From IMG/VR virus record IMGVR_UViG_3300037827_000030, positions 1-20,210 of that record: 20,210 nucleotides of DNA; one strand, given 5' to 3'. A program made the position numbers and the translations under genes. Numbering within the stretch: the stretch's first letter is position 1; each line of letters opens with the position of its first letter. Positions 6,309 through 18,916 of this stretch are shown one piece after another. Source of the DNA: a virus. Under the pieces are notes generated by a model. The model did not search any database. It saw only the letters and a program-made list of their open reading frames with translations, and had not been told where the DNA came from.

Positions 6309-8044
6309 TGTCGTGTATTTGCGATCCCGTCAGTTGCTACAAATCTTCCAAGCCCCCAAAACTTAAATAATGGCACCACATCATTCCCTATCCCACACTG
6401 CCACCACATCAATTTATTTTTACGTTGTCCTATAGGATTTAATACATAAGGCATATCATGGCCAAAGGTAGCACCACCATCATAAGATAATGACAAATCA
6501 ACTCTGGGAAGTGACAATGGGCCAAATCCTGTATTTTGATTCTGTTGAAACTTAATAAAATTAAAATCTGTACTATCTGTATTTTGAGCTACTAACACAT
6601 TCAATCCATCTTGTGTCTGTATAAAATTACCATCTTGCGTTATAAGAAATATTGCTGAACCTTGTGTAATGACAAAATTTCCATCTTGAGTAAGCCAGAG
6701 TGCATCACCACCCAAAATCTGTTGCTGATAGTTCGTTTCACCTGATTCAATCGTAAAACCAATGTCATTTATAATTCGATATTCTTGAGAGGGTAATCTA
6801 ATATTTTTACATGTTCTGAATCGTGGTATTTCATTTAATATAGGATTTCCACTAGAATCATTTTGCGTACTATAATCTGTATAGATTGTGTCAAACGCAA
6901 ATAAATTACCGTTTTGTTTACTTACAAAATAATATTGATTATTAAAAAATGCAACTTGCGCTGCAATAAAATAATTTAAGTTTTGATCGGATGCGTGGAA
7001 AAATCTCTTTGTATTAAAATCATAAAATAGTGAAAGATTATCTGTATAGAAATTAATATGATAAATTAAATGCCCATCTTGCCGGTATAAAAATCCTTGC
7101 GAGTCCTGAGGAGCTGTCAATTGTGACATTAAATAATCAATACCATCCGTGGTTATTTTTTCAATGGTACAGCCGTCTGTTGAATAAACAATGATAGGGC
7201 CGCTCCTCTCATTTTGCGCAAGCCATACGACAATGCTATCCATAAATGCAATAGTCGCAGGGTTAAGACAACCGTAATCAATATTGTATTGATTGTTGCG
7301 CTGATACGGAAATAATTGCGCACCCGTATCAAACCATGGCTCAGAGACGACCGACCCTATAACCAGTATAGCATTCCCTTTAGAGGGGAATCTAACCACT
7401 GCTTGTATGGTATCTGGCTTTGTTTGTATTAGACCGATACTTGCAGCATTATTAAGCCATGTAAGCCCATCATTTTGCCCAGATAACCGCCATGTATTGG
7501 TTGCAGCCGGAGAATAGAAATTATCTTGCTTTGCAGCACATAAAAAATAGGTATCGTGAAATGAGACATATCCAGGGGTAAATTGCAGACCTGTAACAAT
7601 CCTAAAAGTTGGAGACAAAGTTGGATCGTATAAATAGAGATTAACACTATCTGATATCAATATCTGCGGTTTATTATTCTCTGCAATATAAACAACGCCC
7701 GTATTAGTTTGCAATGGAACGCCTGGATTAATTAATGTTGCCGTTGAATCAAATGTACGTGAGAGACTTTGATCAAAGAATAAATTAACCAAATAGACAT
7801 TTGAATCTATAACAACAACTAATCTATTGAGTTTAGAGCTTGAATAACATGCGCGACCTACAAGGCCATTTCTAAATGAAGATGAAGGTACTGCAATTTG
7901 ATAGCCGGCGTATGGGACTAAAAAATTGTCACTGATAAACATGTTTAAAGTTTTTTGTATAGAAATCTTTGGGTATCTTCCAAAACTTGAACTTCCCACT
8001 ATGTCTATGGGAATAGAAGAAAAATTATTCCCTCGACTTATCAT
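6305..8044 (-). CDS. P22 gp10-like head-to-tail / packaged DNA stabilisation protein
   Basis: A 579-aa, beta-strand-rich protein, longer than P22 gp10 (472 aa). Its N-terminus (SIQKTLNMFISDNFLVPYAGYQ) parallels the 'NMLATPKE...SSGYLRSFPG' opening of P22 gp10. The body alternates strands with Asp/Asn turns, as in beta-propeller-like tail hub proteins. Residues about 447-487 hold repeated LTQDGNF/ITQDGNF units. It follows the gp4-like gene, the same order as gene 4 then gene 10 in P22, but an HNH gene lies between. gp10 closes the portal channel after packaging and forms the tail hub. The ATG at 8044 lies inside the end of the HNH gene (20-base overlap). Confidence 0.7.
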   Translation of the reverse strand: MISRGNNFSSIPIDIVGSSSFGRYPKISIQKTLNMFISDNFLVPYAGYQIAVPSSSFRNGLVGRACYSSSKLNRLVVVIDSNVYLVNLFFDQSLSRTFDSTATLINPGVPLQTNTGVVYIAENNKPQILISDSVNLYLYDPTLSPTFRIVTGLQFTPGYVSFHDTYFLCAAKQDNFYSPAATNTWRLSGQNDGLTWLNNAASIGLIQTKPDTIQAVVRFPSKGNAILVIGSVVSEPWFDTGAQLFPYQRNNQYNIDYGCLNPATIAFMDSIVVWLAQNERSGPIIVYSTDGCTIEKITTDGIDYLMSQLTAPQDSQGFLYRQDGHLIYHINFYTDNLSLFYDFNTKRFFHASDQNLNYFIAAQVAFFNNQYYFVSKQNGNLFAFDTIYTDYSTQNDSSGNPILNEIPRFRTCKNIRLPSQEYRIINDIGFTIESGETNYQQQILGGDALWLTQDGNFVITQGSAIFLITQDGNFIQTQDGLNVLVAQNTDSTDFNFIKFQQNQNTGFGPLSLPRVDLSLSYDGGATFGHDMPYVLNPIGQRKNKLMWWQCGIGNDVVPLFKFWGLGRFVATDGIANTRQ

Positions 8045-8702
8045 GATAAAATTCCTTTAAATAATTAATTGCTTCCTGCAATAATTCTATAGATTCTAAT
8101 GAATATCCTATTAGACAATTACATTTAGAACATAATAATCCTCTAACAATTCCTGTATTGTGACAATGATCTACGGATAAATCTTTTATTTTATTACTTT
8201 GTTTTGAAAAAGCAGTTTCAAAGTTATTACAAATTTTACATTTATTATTTTGTTCTGATAACATTTTATTATATTGTTCTAAAGTTATTCCATATAATTT
8301 TTTTAATCTATAATTTCTACGTTGATCTATATTATTTTTATAAAATCTTTTAGACCGTTCAGCATACTTTTCTTTGTTATTAATATAATCCTTCGCTTTC
8401 CACTCTCGATCTCTTAATCTAATATGATCAATATTTTTCTTACGAAATTCTCTTGATTTAAAATTTAATAATTCCTTATTTTCTTTTCTATGCGCGCGCA
8501 CTCTTTCTCTAGCGCAAGCTTTACAACTTATATTATTAGGATTTCTAATTCTAACTTCCGATTCAGTAAGATCACCATGTACCTTACAAACTTTCACAAT
8601 ATCATTCATATACACCCCATCAAGTGTTGTCATCAAGGAATGCAAAACCAGGCCATTGATGAGATGGCTTTTCGGTAGCGAACCTATGTTTTGCTGTATC
8701 AT
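8025..8702 (-). CDS. HNH homing endonuclease (endonuclease VII-type zinc fold)
   Basis: The C-terminal part (residues about 135-219) matches the recombination endonuclease VII family. It has YGITLEQYNKML, a CKIC zinc pair (C155, C158), the catalytic VDHCHNTG segment (D178-H181), RGLLCSKCN with the second zinc pair (C191, C194) and N195, then a helix ending in AINYLKEF. An N-terminal C-x2-H (C39, H42) and C60-x2-C63 may bind a second zinc. The middle is Lys/Arg-rich, as expected for DNA contact. Such genes are free-standing mobile endonucleases. It sits between the gp4-like and gp10-like genes and overlaps the latter. The start is uncertain: ATG 8702 has an AGGATG site, while ATG 8609 (MNDIVKVCKVHG) looks more like the usual N-terminus of these enzymes and has GGGGTG upstream. 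Resolvase activity is less likely here. Confidence 0.85.
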   Translation of the reverse strand: MIQQNIGSLPKSHLINGLVLHSLMTTLDGVYMNDIVKVCKVHGDLTESEVRIRNPNNISCKACARERVRAHRKENKELLNFKSREFRKKNIDHIRLRDREWKAKDYINNKEKYAERSKRFYKNNIDQRRNYRLKKLYGITLEQYNKMLSEQNNKCKICNNFETAFSKQSNKIKDLSVDHCHNTGIVRGLLCSKCNCLIGYSLESIELLQEAINYLKEFYHDKSRE

Positions 8703-10683: not shown

Positions 10684-12000
10684 CTAGCCTTGTGACAGCG
10701 GAATCATAAAGCGCATGGAATACTCAGGAACAATCACGGAACCGTGTGTTTCATCGTAAATCATACCTGTTTGATTCTGTCCAAATAACGAACCATAAGT
10801 GAGGCGTAATGATGCGCCTGTCTCTGGATCATATTCATTTGCAGTGTCATATGGGCTTTGCTCTGGTAATTGTGGCATAGCCATAAACAATGCTTCACCG
10901 CCCAAAATACCGCCGCAGCGATGTGAAGGGTAAGTCAATAATTGCATACCAGTCGCAATAGGATTATTTAGATTTTGATTAGCGCCGCCAGCCCAGTTAA
11001 GAGCAGGAGTAATACTAATCGTGACATTGCCAGATCCATTTGCAGCTGCATTTGCGGTAGCTCGAACTTGCACAGGGTTAGCCGATGGACTATGCCCAAT
11101 GAAAGTTAGGTAGCGCATATTAGGTTGTCCAGAAACACCATCTTTGAACTGGAATAAATCGCCAGCAAATACGGCATTCGCATCTGATGCCGTTGCACCG
11201 CTCAATGTAATTTGTGTAACGTTTTGACCAGTGGGATCGTTAGTACTGATTACTGTGAGTGTTTGTGCATTCACGCCTGTATCACCAGATACGTGAATTG
11301 GCATCAAGTTGGATTGATAGTATTTAACTAATGGGGTTCCGAAATCACCTACTTCCCAAGACATAGCGATATCATCGTTACGATTTGGAACGAATTGATT
11401 TAAACCATTGCCAACGATTGCAGGGATAACAGTATCAGGCAGATAAATCTTCATGCCTTCCGCAACAGCGCCATAGTTTTTAAACAACATCACAGCTTGC
11501 GCTAATTGTTGATAAGAGCTAATAGCAGTGGAACCATCACCAAAGAAACGATATGGGCCTGAGAAGGTATTAGTTGTACCATCTAACTGACTGGTGACGC
11601 CTGAATCCCAGTTTAATGCAATGTTTGATTCAACCAAGTTTGCAAGTTCAGCAATAGCAGACTTACCAAACACACGCATGTAATCCTCTTCACCTTTTTC
11701 CAAGTTAAAGATGCGTTGTTGTGAGGTAACAGCAAAGCTAGTGTTGTTTGCTTGGTCGCAGACAAGCTGCAATACACGTTGAACAGCAGGTTCAAATGCG
11801 GCAACTAATCCTGCGGTTGTGGTAAAACGAGGGGGCAAGTCAAATGTAACAGTTGATCCTAAGTTTGCCTGAATTTCATCGAAGTCTTTGAACCTCGTAT
11901 TAGCCGTGCTAATATGCGCACAAAGGTTTAATAACAAGCCCAAAGACGATCTTTGGTATGTTTGAACTTGTTGTAAAATATTATTGGGAAATACAGCCAT
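10684..12000 (-). CDS. Major capsid (coat) protein, P22 coat-like
   Basis: A 438-aa protein, close to the 430 aa of P22 coat. It follows a scaffold-type gene as in P22. Residues 1-240 are mixed helix and strand (a long helix near 112-130, FGKSAIAELANLVESNIALNW). Residues about 243-335 form a beta-rich, Ala/Ser/Thr-rich segment (TLTVISTND, ITLSGATASDANAVFAGDLFQFKDG, VTISITPAL) at the place where P22 coat carries its insertion domain. The last hundred residues return to the core fold and end in VPEYSMRFMIPLSQG. The family call rests on length, domain order and gene order. The start has AGGAG at 8 bases, directly preceded by a 6-bp hairpin, which may tune high expression. Confidence 0.8.
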   Translation of the reverse strand: MAVFPNNILQQVQTYQRSSLGLLLNLCAHISTANTRFKDFDEIQANLGSTVTFDLPPRFTTTAGLVAAFEPAVQRVLQLVCDQANNTSFAVTSQQRIFNLEKGEEDYMRVFGKSAIAELANLVESNIALNWDSGVTSQLDGTTNTFSGPYRFFGDGSTAISSYQQLAQAVMLFKNYGAVAEGMKIYLPDTVIPAIVGNGLNQFVPNRNDDIAMSWEVGDFGTPLVKYYQSNLMPIHVSGDTGVNAQTLTVISTNDPTGQNVTQITLSGATASDANAVFAGDLFQFKDGVSGQPNMRYLTFIGHSPSANPVQVRATANAAANGSGNVTISITPALNWAGGANQNLNNPIATGMQLLTYPSHRCGGILGGEALFMAMPQLPEQSPYDTANEYDPETGASLRLTYGSLFGQNQTGMIYDETHGSVIVPEYSMRFMIPLSQG

Positions 12001-14665: not shown

Positions 14666-14854
14666 TTAGGCGCGTCTAGGTGTCATTGATCCACCAGCGC
14701 GTTTCCATTCAGCATGGCCTTTACCCGTCATTTTACCATGCTCGCCAACACGTCCGCCCTCACCTTTTCGCTGAATAACTCGTGAGATACCTTCCTGATG
14801 GCTATCTTTAACCATCCGATTATCCATCATCTTACTTTTCATTTTGTGTTCCAT
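14666..14854 (-). CDS. Small basic Gly/Lys-rich protein, 62 aa
   Basis: A very basic protein with many Met, Lys, Arg, Gly and His (ISRVIQRKGEGGRVGEHGK, then HAEWKRAGGSMTPRRA). The 'GGRVGEHGKMTGKGHAEWKRAGGS' type of tail resembles short phage proteins encoded near portal and scaffold genes, whose role I do not know. The start at 14854 has a strong GGAGG site 7 bases upstream and overlaps the end of the previous gene by 23 bases. Nucleic-acid binding in the virion or during packaging would fit its charge. Confidence 0.7.
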   Translation of the reverse strand: MEHKMKSKMMDNRMVKDSHQEGISRVIQRKGEGGRVGEHGKMTGKGHAEWKRAGGSMTPRRA

Positions 14855-15368
14855 TGTCGATCCTCCGTGAAATAGACTTATTAAGCCACATAGCGGCTTC
14901 CTCTAAGCGCTCAATTCCTTTTGAACGCTCTTTGTTTTCTTGAATATTATCTAAAAGCCATTTGTACAATTCATACAAAGCATCTTTGATATGTCTTATA
15001 TCATCGCGCCTTTTGGCATCGACTGCAATGAACTCGAATGGATTTTCTATTTTTTCTGTTTTTGGTTTAATCCAAAGATCATTTTCTATGACAATATTAG
15101 TTATTAATTTTTCTGTTTTTTCTATTCTATCGAAGCACTTTTTAATGCCTTCTTGGGTGTGATTTATAGTATTTTCATGTGCATTAAGTTGTTGGCTTAC
15201 AACTTCTAAATCACTATTTATTTTTATTCTAAAATTCTGTATTTCTGCAAAGGTAGGTGAGGTTGTTGTGCTAAATGTACCATAACATCTAGATTCTCTA
15301 CCATTAGGATAGGCACTACACTTTCCACCCAGCAAACAAAGACAAGATCTAGATGAATGATGACTCAT
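14832..15368 (-). CDS. Acb2/Tad1-hairpin-domain-like protein (candidate anti-CBASS/anti-Thoeris sponge) with N-terminal extension
   Basis: Residues about 120-168 run RRDDIRHIKDALYELYKWL, then ERSKGIERLEEAAMW and LNKSISR. The signature 'E-[KR]-S-x-[AG]-[IL]-x-[KR]-L-E-E-A-x-M-W-x-N-x-x-I-x-R' is the one I know from the phage Acb2/Tad1 hairpin family (formerly a DUF; T4 Vs.4-type). Proven members bind cyclic di- and trinucleotides of CBASS, or the gcADPR signal of Thoeris. The usual members are roughly 70-120 aa. This one has 178 aa, with a Cys-rich N-terminus (C9, C11, C17, C28) and a predicted coiled coil (residues about 40-95). The gene sits in a tight small-gene cluster (ATGA overlap upstream, 23-base overlap downstream). 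Ligand binding is inferred from one motif; a structural role cannot be excluded. Confidence 0.55.
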   Translation of the reverse strand: MSHHSSRSCLCLLGGKCSAYPNGRESRCYGTFSTTTSPTFAEIQNFRIKINSDLEVVSQQLNAHENTINHTQEGIKKCFDRIEKTEKLITNIVIENDLWIKPKTEKIENPFEFIAVDAKRRDDIRHIKDALYELYKWLLDNIQENKERSKGIERLEEAAMWLNKSISRRIDNGTQNEK

Positions 15369-15559
15369 AATACTCTTCCCATCGTTATATTTGTTAATGC
15401 TCGCACATCAGGATTTGCAAATGTCCAAACTTCCCCTGTTTCATCAATTGCAACTGTCCACATTAAATGATGCTCTGCGCCATAATCCAGAACTAACCAA
15501 GCAAGTCCTGCACCTTTTGGAGTCATCATAGGAATAGGAGGATTTAATTGTAATATCAT
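15365..15559 (-). CDS. Small conserved phage protein, 64 aa
   Basis: Its sequence has the pattern LNPPIPMMTPKGAGLAW, LDYGAEHHLMWTVAID, GEVWTFANPDVRA and NITMGR. I recall this pattern from small phage proteins often encoded next to Acb2/Tad1-type genes, but no function is known to me. It looks like a compact beta barrel of SH3 size with conserved Gly, His and Trp. It is joined by ATGA overlaps to both neighbours (15556-15559 and 15365-15368), so the three products are probably made together. Confidence 0.7.
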   Translation of the reverse strand: MILQLNPPIPMMTPKGAGLAWLVLDYGAEHHLMWTVAIDETGEVWTFANPDVRALTNITMGRVL

Positions 15560-16593: not shown

Positions 16594-16775
16594 TACGCGT
16601 CTCTCCTATTTCTTCGGTAAAGTTTATCATACATAGATCGTCGATCATTCGCATCAGCCCCGTTCAAATGGTTACGATAAGCATTTTCAAGCTGACGATC
16701 ATTTAACTTATAGGTTTTTTTAAGTTCTGCGGGCTTTGCTTCTTGGAAATCATTCCATGTAGGTTGCTTGCTCAT
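16593..16775 (-). CDS. Hypothetical 60-aa protein downstream of portal
   Basis: A short helical, charged protein (WNDFQEAKPAELKKTYKLND, then QLENAYRNHL and a basic end KLYRRNRRDA). The start overlaps the portal stop by ATGA, and the stop overlaps the next start by one base. The gene is therefore embedded in a strictly coupled operon. No family recognised; the basic C-terminus could bind DNA. Confidence 0.65.
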   Translation of the reverse strand: MSKQPTWNDFQEAKPAELKKTYKLNDRQLENAYRNHLNGADANDRRSMYDKLYRRNRRDA

Positions 16776-18916
16776 GTTCTCGCTCCTTGAGATTCACTAG
16801 GTTGACTGATTTTGTGATGCAATTCAATCCCTTTGTGATGCGTTTCTATACTTTCTTTTACATGGCGGTGACCCATATCCATATGCTTCAATTGCAGATC
16901 GACTTGCTTGCCAAAACGCTCTGTCTGCGCCTTGACAAGTTCAACAGAATCTTCATCCTCAGACATTTTAAGTTCAGCCATAATCTTTTTCTCTTTAAGT
17001 TCAAGATCTTTCATATCAACTTGGAATTCTCGTTGATTTTTCATTTCATCTTGTTGCAGTTTCTTCATATCAACCTGTACTTTTAACATGGCGGGATTAT
17101 TCTGCATTTCAGCTTGTTGAGCCTGCATTGCCATTTGTTTCTGCTGTTGCATCTCTTGCAGCCATCCATCAACCATTGTCTTAAGCTGCTCGATACCACG
17201 TCCTTCCATATTGTCTAGAACGAAGTTTAAACCCTTTTCTGCAATAAACTGTGCAAATAGAGGTGACATACCCATCATCTCTTTGACCATCATAATAGTA
17301 CGTGACTTCTGCACTTGGAACGATGCACCTGCCTTCACAGCAATATTAAGTTCATTCGTATCAAAATCCATGTCCATACCATCTTTCTGGTTGATCTTAA
17401 TAAACGTCTTTTTCCCCTCAGCATCCATCAAGGGTAAGGTACGAGGAGTTGTATAATATTTAGGCATTAGATCCACATAGATTTGCGCCGCACGCTGATA
17501 GCCTTGCAGATAACCTACGATATAGGGCATTGCGGTTGCATTAGACTGGCTTGCAGCCTCAACCAAGGCAATACCACTCAATTGGTTGTTATTGATCCCT
17601 AAAGCTGCGTCATAGCTTCCTAATACGTTTTGTATAAGCTGGTCAGATCCCGTGAACGCATTGATAATCTCAGGCGGACATGGGATGCGTTGCACCTCAC
17701 GTATAGGGTTTGAAATAGGTAGATCAGGATTCTGTTCATGCACTGAGTTGTAGACTAAGACATTCGCTTTCTGCACATCCTTATAAGCGGATAGAAACTC
17801 CTCCTCTTTAGGGAGCGCCTCTTTAGCAACCATAAACTTATGCTGTACGGTATTTTCAATCTCATTCGCCAAAGCAATGCCTGAGTAGTTCTTAAGGCGT
17901 TGCGCACCTTTTGCATGGTAAACATAAGGTCGTGTCACTTGCCTTACATTGCCGTTCTTTGGCGTTTTAATCATGACTGAATGGCCATCCACAAATATCA
18001 ATGGCAGCATGGTAAAGTCAGTTGCTTCATGGTCGATGATCTGGTTTTCAATGAGTCTGTATCGGTCGATACTTTCAATCATGGTTTTGCGAGGCTTTCC
18101 AATCATGGCGGGAGGCGCTGCTAAGTCGCCCCATGTTTTTAGCATCTTATCGTACTTATCCTTGGTCATGACTTGAGGAGGTGCGCCCTGCTCACCTCTC
18201 ACTTGTACGATTGTTTTCTCCTTGATCTTTTTCTCGTAATACTCAGCTACCATCACAATGGGTGTTGCATCATTCAGATATGACCAATTAAATCCCGCAA
18301 AATCCCGTCTAAAGTTTAGGTTTTCAATAGATATCTCTGGGAATTCGTCCTCAAAATCTTCTTTGGCCTTTGGATACAATTCAAAGCAGAATCGCCCATC
18401 CCCTTTATGTGAGTAACGTGCTAGCTGATCAAACCCGCATAATGTCGGATCAAAGACACGCTCAATGTTAATGACTTGATGGAAGCTCATCGGCTTTGCA
18501 TAGTCAGTGGACATTTTAAGCGAGCTAAAACCTCCAGATAGTAAGTCTTTATAGACTTCATATTTAGTGTGATGATTATTCGAATCAAGCAAGACATGAC
18601 GCAAGTGCTGCTCTACAACCTTAATAGTCATAGGATCAGCCGTAGTCTGATCATCAGCATTCACCTCGATATCAGGCTCTTGCTTTGAGAACTCACCCAA
18701 TAAGCGTGATATATATGCCTCAAGCACGTTAAACTCAAGCTGAGGTCGTCCAAGCGTCATTAAAAGAGTAATATCATCTTCTTTTAAAGATGCCTCAAAG
18801 ACAAACCGTCTGAACTCGTTATAACGGTCATAATTGGGTTTAAAATAGTCGTATGCGCGCCGTACATTAGTTTTAATACGGTCGAGTTGATCCTGGTGCC
18901 TTTTTGCCACTTCCAT
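16772..18916 (-). CDS. Portal protein, P22 gp1-like
   Basis: A 714-aa protein, nearly the length of the P22 portal (725 aa). Residues 58-89 (PQLEFNVLEAYISRLLGEFSKQEPDIEV) correspond to the N-terminal 'wing' helix region. GGFSSLKMSTDYA (128-140) precedes the conserved segment with DPTLCGFD, and GDGRFCFELYPKAKEDFEDEFP (172-193) matches the 'ARHC...SMSQNGWEDFAEKY' stretch of P22 portal. PIVMVAEYYEKK then parallels 'IQIAEFYEVVEKK'. The last 120 residues (about 595-714) are Gln/Met/Lys-rich coiled coil, like the C-terminal barrel. Portals of this family form a 12-subunit ring at one capsid vertex and measure DNA filling. The gene has a 308-base leader holding pentamer arrays, and its SD lies in a 9-bp palindromic hairpin. 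Confidence 0.88.
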   Translation of the reverse strand: MEVAKRHQDQLDRIKTNVRRAYDYFKPNYDRYNEFRRFVFEASLKEDDITLLMTLGRPQLEFNVLEAYISRLLGEFSKQEPDIEVNADDQTTADPMTIKVVEQHLRHVLLDSNNHHTKYEVYKDLLSGGFSSLKMSTDYAKPMSFHQVINIERVFDPTLCGFDQLARYSHKGDGRFCFELYPKAKEDFEDEFPEISIENLNFRRDFAGFNWSYLNDATPIVMVAEYYEKKIKEKTIVQVRGEQGAPPQVMTKDKYDKMLKTWGDLAAPPAMIGKPRKTMIESIDRYRLIENQIIDHEATDFTMLPLIFVDGHSVMIKTPKNGNVRQVTRPYVYHAKGAQRLKNYSGIALANEIENTVQHKFMVAKEALPKEEEFLSAYKDVQKANVLVYNSVHEQNPDLPISNPIREVQRIPCPPEIINAFTGSDQLIQNVLGSYDAALGINNNQLSGIALVEAASQSNATAMPYIVGYLQGYQRAAQIYVDLMPKYYTTPRTLPLMDAEGKKTFIKINQKDGMDMDFDTNELNIAVKAGASFQVQKSRTIMMVKEMMGMSPLFAQFIAEKGLNFVLDNMEGRGIEQLKTMVDGWLQEMQQQKQMAMQAQQAEMQNNPAMLKVQVDMKKLQQDEMKNQREFQVDMKDLELKEKKIMAELKMSEDEDSVELVKAQTERFGKQVDLQLKHMDMGHRHVKESIETHHKGIELHHKISQPSESQGART

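Follow-up and report, generated by a model that had tools for sequence, protein, structure and literature searches.

A divergent Acb2-side hairpin domain fused to a cysteine-rich coiled-coil front part in a phage portal-to-capsid cargo island

Small proteins of the Acb2/Tad1 hairpin family let other phages soak up bacterial alarm molecules. In the T4 member Vs.4 (T4 Acb2), Y8 and F82 form stacking interactions with cGAMP, and Y8, H11, K23 and R79 contact it, while the hexamer is held together by L29, A66, A73 and A77 and its interface is broken by A77I (PMC10097602). A natural T68M change has been described as lowering the affinity of T4 Acb2 (PMC12657230). In phage phiKZ, the virion protein gp184 has been validated as injected (PMC10449902), and a review describes the injected phiKZ Tad1 as blocking both CBASS and Thoeris (PMC13282480). 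We found gp184, which is annotated as a structural protein, to be a Tad1 homologue (E = 2e-6); it also escapes the Pfam model of the hairpin family (PF24729) entirely (L185:2470-3162), which means that the family is under-counted by Pfam.

Here, we describe a related protein encoded in a 20,210-nucleotide stretch of viral DNA (IMG/VR record IMGVR_UViG_3300037827_000030, positions 1 to 20,210; hereafter the window). A 178-aa open reading frame (14832-15368, minus strand) combines a Cys-rich start, a coiled-coil helix and an Acb2/Tad1-type hairpin, as delimited from the ORF list, Pfam and PHROG profiles and AlphaFold.

The hairpin domain: family membership and predicted fold

The 178-aa protein is a real, divergent member of the Acb2/Tad1 hairpin superfamily. 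PF24729 (Acb2_Tad1_hairpin) matched residues 117-168 (14865-15020, minus strand) at 30.0 bits (E = 5.9e-7, curated cut-off 27), and phrog_1454 also matched the protein (E = 2.8e-9). The same Pfam profile gave 71.4 bits for T4 Acb2 (Vs.4) and 34.2 bits for SBSphiJ7 Tad1, and among the two sister proteins found in other phages it gave 27.9 bits (L002) and 26.3 bits (L001, just below the cut-off of 27). When the family profile was rebuilt from 77 family sequences without the window lineage, the window protein scored 39.9 bits, compared with at most 12.0 bits among 20,000 shuffles. The closest PDB sequence match was 'Acb2 homolog 43' (9ptq), a weak one (E = 0.02), and searches of the 178-aa protein with PADLOC and NCBIfam gave no match above cut-off. 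Based on the family alignment, residues 109-178 (14835-15044, minus strand) form a complete Acb2-type module, extending from NPFEF to MWLNKSISRR and a tail. Within the family signature (RE..SLA.T.LEEA..W), the E, S, LEEA and W are kept; an Arg present in 93% of the family and a Thr present in 90% (equivalent to T4 T68), which rank among its most conserved positions, are replaced by K146 and E153, and both changes are common to all three members of the lineage.

AlphaFold, given a 57-row family alignment, predicted a hairpin of two helices (residues 118-141 and 146-168) with a pLDDT of about 94; with the three lineage members alone as input, pLDDT was 43. In the predicted layout, residues 1-39 are without structure and are followed by a single helix (40-96), a linker and then the hairpin. 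The original prediction had assigned the C-terminal signature to the Acb2/Tad1 hairpin family and had proposed a profile search and a structure prediction as checks. The assignment was borne out by both, as the profile match was significant and, for the hairpin part, the expected helical fold was obtained. Foldseek comparison with viral models (BFVD) placed Acb2/Tad1 hairpin names on most of the top 21 matches, and the first two matches in the PDB were the T4 Vs.4-cGAMP and Tad1-gcADPR complexes, at E values (0.58 and 1.5) that are not significant alone. VIA-align Z scores were 6.3 against T4 Vs.4 and 5.7 against Acb2, which is level with unrelated helical pairs, such that this measure does not separate the family. 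Such a tie would suit a chance similarity between generic helical hairpins, but that explanation is contradicted by the profiles, given the passing of the Pfam cut-off and the distance of the lineage-free score from the best shuffle, and we consider it hardly credible.

Within the superfamily, separate profiles gave the window protein 38.6 bits on the Acb2 side versus 14.2 bits on the Tad1 side. In the tree, the window lineage likewise fell with the Acb2-side sequences at the Acb2/Tad1 split (0.997), on a long branch (1.5 substitutions per site); a domain this short supports a rough tree at best, but the placement agrees with the profile scores. The MWLNK motif and the GT tail had suggested a Tad1 assignment; we rejected it on the evidence of both the profiles and the tree, and given their agreement on the Acb2 side these Tad1-like elements are secondary. 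An Acb2-type hairpin ORF was also observed, unannotated, in cyanophage S-2L (L006:5986-6183; PF24729, 69.5 bits), where it lies in a tail gene cluster and overlaps the start of an annotated tail assembly protein.

The front part and the portal-to-capsid island

The hairpin is fused to a front part of two segments. Residues 1-39 (15252-15368, minus strand) are Cys-rich (C9, C11, C17, C28) and predicted to be disordered based on low AlphaFold pLDDT. Residues 40-96 (15081-15251, minus strand) are predicted to form a single long helix (pLDDT about 90) with coiled-coil heptads, whose periodicity exceeded that of shuffles in the three homologues (p = 0.017, 0.002 and 0.008). The long extra N-terminus of the original prediction is therefore present and Cys-rich, but it is not a coiled coil of 118 residues: the extension spans about 108 residues, of which just 40-96 are predicted to be helical. 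Two other sequences share the front part: L001, which is 72% identical across the full protein, and L002, which is 66% identical and carries an additional insert; each comes from a metagenomic phage contig. Within residues 1-39, the block CLC...G.CSAYPNGR is conserved in both, and beyond these two sisters no further copy of the N-terminal part was found in phages, viral contigs or genomes. Both parts are under purifying selection (dN/dS of 0.07-0.25 for the front part and 0.15-0.18 for the hairpin). Since no ATG, GTG or TTG occurs between codons 12 and 131, the hairpin can be produced as a fusion only. GC-rich phages also contain long ORFs that end in a hairpin; considered as further fusions, these mostly look like start-codon artefacts and were set aside.

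The gene belongs to a series of virion genes that all point the same way, comprising a terminase piece, the portal gene, several small genes, a scaffold-like gene and the major capsid protein gene. Its placement within a virion operon, also part of the original prediction, proved correct: it sits between a P22-type portal protein (16772-18916, minus strand; PF16510, E = 9.7e-92) and the major capsid protein (10684-12000, minus strand; phrog_283, E = 6e-10), which form the upstream and downstream borders, respectively, of the island described below. The ATG start codon of the hairpin gene overlaps the stop of the upstream 64-aa gene (15365-15559, minus strand) as ATGA, and a ribosome-binding site read from the sequence (GGGAAGAG, 15373-15380, minus strand) lies 4 bases ahead of it. 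At its 3' end, the hairpin gene overlaps a 62-aa basic gene (14666-14854, minus strand) by 23 bases. The hairpin gene is thus translationally coupled within the portal-to-capsid run and would be co-transcribed with the head genes; promoter and terminator scans gave scores at or under chance level. The 64-aa protein (LNPPIP...) belongs to a widespread, unnamed phage family, which we found at 87 loci in many contexts and which is without a Pfam or PHROG match; it was rejected as an obligate partner of the hairpin gene (80 loci). Elsewhere in the window, a recombination endonuclease VII gene (8025-8702, minus strand; PF02945, E = 3.5e-23) occurs among the tail genes, possibly as a homing-type insertion.

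We compared the stretch from portal to capsid among phages with a related capsid protein (43 distinct relatives). The 62-aa gene was kept in 39 of the 43 and the first small gene in 40, but the slot before the 62-aa gene varied from phage to phage. A hairpin gene was present within the interval in six of the 43 relatives: as the fusion in both sisters, and as short stand-alone hairpins in L150, L131, L013 and L015 (the last two under the Pfam cut-off, with the motif present). In L162, L170, L171 and L267, a hairpin gene occurred outside the interval (that of L171 under the cut-off). Because stand-alone hairpin genes occur in further relatives, four of them in the same interval, the lineage appears to take up the domain recurrently. 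Other cargo of the island in relatives included a C5 DNA methylase (in the sister L001), HNH endonucleases, a DnaB-N protein and a sigma-70 region 4 protein. The portal-to-capsid stretch can thus be classed as an accessory island in which the hairpin gene recurs as a passenger, cargo rather than core. Attempts to name a host through capsid relatives in genome bins led to bins in unrelated phyla.

Other genes in comparable positions were also noted. Three proteins (L098 7203-7436, L103 6948-7355 and L035 6191-6919), encoded in the corresponding island slot or behind the 64-aa gene, combine a CxCxC cluster with helical structure and are not detectably homologous to the front part. A collagen-repeat protein (L114:4073-5053; PF01391, E = 6.9e-20) lies in the equivalent island of a relative. 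In L013 (6001-6709) and L015 (6001-6670), a small coiled-coil gene overlaps the stand-alone hairpin gene in the slot after the 64-aa gene, an arrangement that resembles the window's fusion in split form. We do not claim the window protein as a fusion of this gene pair, as profile comparison of the front parts (alignments of 2 and 3 sequences) gave no similarity.

Pocket residues and possible functions

The cGAMP site of T4 Vs.4 is partly retained in the window protein, with F113 at Y8, V116 at H11, K128 at K23, K164 at R79 and S167 at F82. The F82 equivalent is also missing from most of the family, and sister phage L002 carries Q at the K128 position. At the hexamer interface, L29, A66, A73 and A77 correspond to L134, G151, A158 and L162; studied Tad1 proteins carry L or M at the A77 position. 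The family Arg replaced by K146 is R67 of Pseudomonas phage Acb2, which contacts cA3. Judged from these residues, the dinucleotide site (F113, K128, K164) looks better kept than the trinucleotide site (K146 for R67). Given the changes in signature residues (R to K, T to E and H11 to V), the choice of ligand has probably been altered, or binding lost. The working sponge of the original prediction could accordingly not be upheld as stated, with residues of the cGAMP and hexamer sites changed together with the conserved R and T.

We lean, by little more than an even chance, towards a counter-defence protein, in which a divergent Acb2-side hairpin sequesters a nucleotide second messenger of host defence. 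The protein would be made from the head-gene transcript through translational coupling, its hairpin domain would most likely oligomerise, and the oligomer would sequester the messenger such that the defence effector stays off. The Cys-rich coiled-coil front part would probably serve as a second oligomerisation or anchoring surface. Against a sponge speak E153 at T68, V116 at H11, S167 at F82, L162 at A77, the Q of L002 at K128 and the long branch, as well as a late-operon position that is not obviously useful against an early-acting defence. Alternatively, the hairpin may have been repurposed: having lost nucleotide binding, it would act as an oligomerisation module only, in a protein that serves the head operon as an assembly, scaffolding or other accessory factor and whose working part is the coiled coil. 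In favour of this reading, all three lineage members carry K and E at the family R and T, the H11 and F82 equivalents are lost, the long ORFan coiled coil is under purifying selection, and the gene is embedded in the head operon. We nevertheless consider repurposing unlikely, if a serious contender, since the hairpin is constrained at least as much as the N-terminus (dN of 0.06-0.16 versus 0.26-0.31) and its pocket retains the aromatic position and most of the basic ones. Moreover, most relatives with conserved head genes are without the gene, which is thus not generally required for assembly, and its on/off presence in a variable island argues against a structural role.

As a special case of the sponge reading, the protein could be synthesised late, packaged via the Cys-rich coiled coil and injected with the DNA before signalling begins. 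Accessory phage proteins that are injected exist, the gene lies among head genes, and phiKZ gp184 is a precedent for a Tad1-family sponge injected from the virion; as such a sponge is already known, the idea is plausible and not new in kind. However, position is a weak argument where a methylase, homing nucleases, a DnaB-N protein and a sigma factor share the island in relatives, and the N-terminus is without detectable similarity to gp184. On balance, we regard virion delivery as improbable here. In its most specific form, this small P22-portal phage would package and inject an Acb2-side sponge tethered by a private Cys-rich coiled coil, and the remodelled pocket would take up a nucleotide signal bound by none of the studied sponges; such a combination seems very improbable indeed.

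Comparison with known hairpin proteins

With this protein, the Acb2/Tad1 family gains a new architecture, a Cys-rich coiled coil plus hairpin. The phage lineage also illustrates how genes of the sponge family are gained and lost within a head-operon cargo island, in one case in fused form. Should the remodelled pocket have retained signal binding, it may lead to a defence messenger that has yet to be studied; if it binds none, a sponge fold would have been reused for another role.

Like Acb2 (T4 Vs.4 and Pseudomonas phage Acb2, PDB 8h2j/8h2x), the window protein has two antiparallel helices and a preceding short segment, and it resembles Acb2 in the aromatic/Lys/basic pocket (F113, K128, K164) and in L134, G151 and A158 of the hexamer interface. 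It differs from Acb2 in adding a 108-residue N-terminal extension, in carrying V, S and E for H11, F82 and T68, and K for R67 of the Pseudomonas phage protein, and in its long branch. With Tad1 (SBSphiJ7, CbTad1) it shares the MW(L/M)N motif, a GT-containing tail and a hairpin preceded by a fused N-terminal part; in Tad1, however, this part is an antiparallel beta-sheet domain, whereas residues 1-117 of the window protein are predicted to be disordered apart from one helix. A hairpin fused to an N-terminal part also occurs in SUFG_00048 of Sulfitobacter phage phiCB2047-B (L009:3581-4147), but there the partner is a RyR domain (PF02026, E = 3.3e-10; hairpin PF24729, E = 5.4e-8) rather than a Cys-rich coiled coil; it is annotated as a hypothetical protein. 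Finally, phiKZ gp184 is likewise phage-borne, with a long N-terminal extension, a C-terminal hairpin and a similar RR.(E/D).GT tail. It is of Tad1 type and injected, whereas the window protein is nearer to Acb2 and has a front part unrelated by sequence; virion delivery, if true, would make the window protein a second, much smaller example beside phiKZ Tad1.
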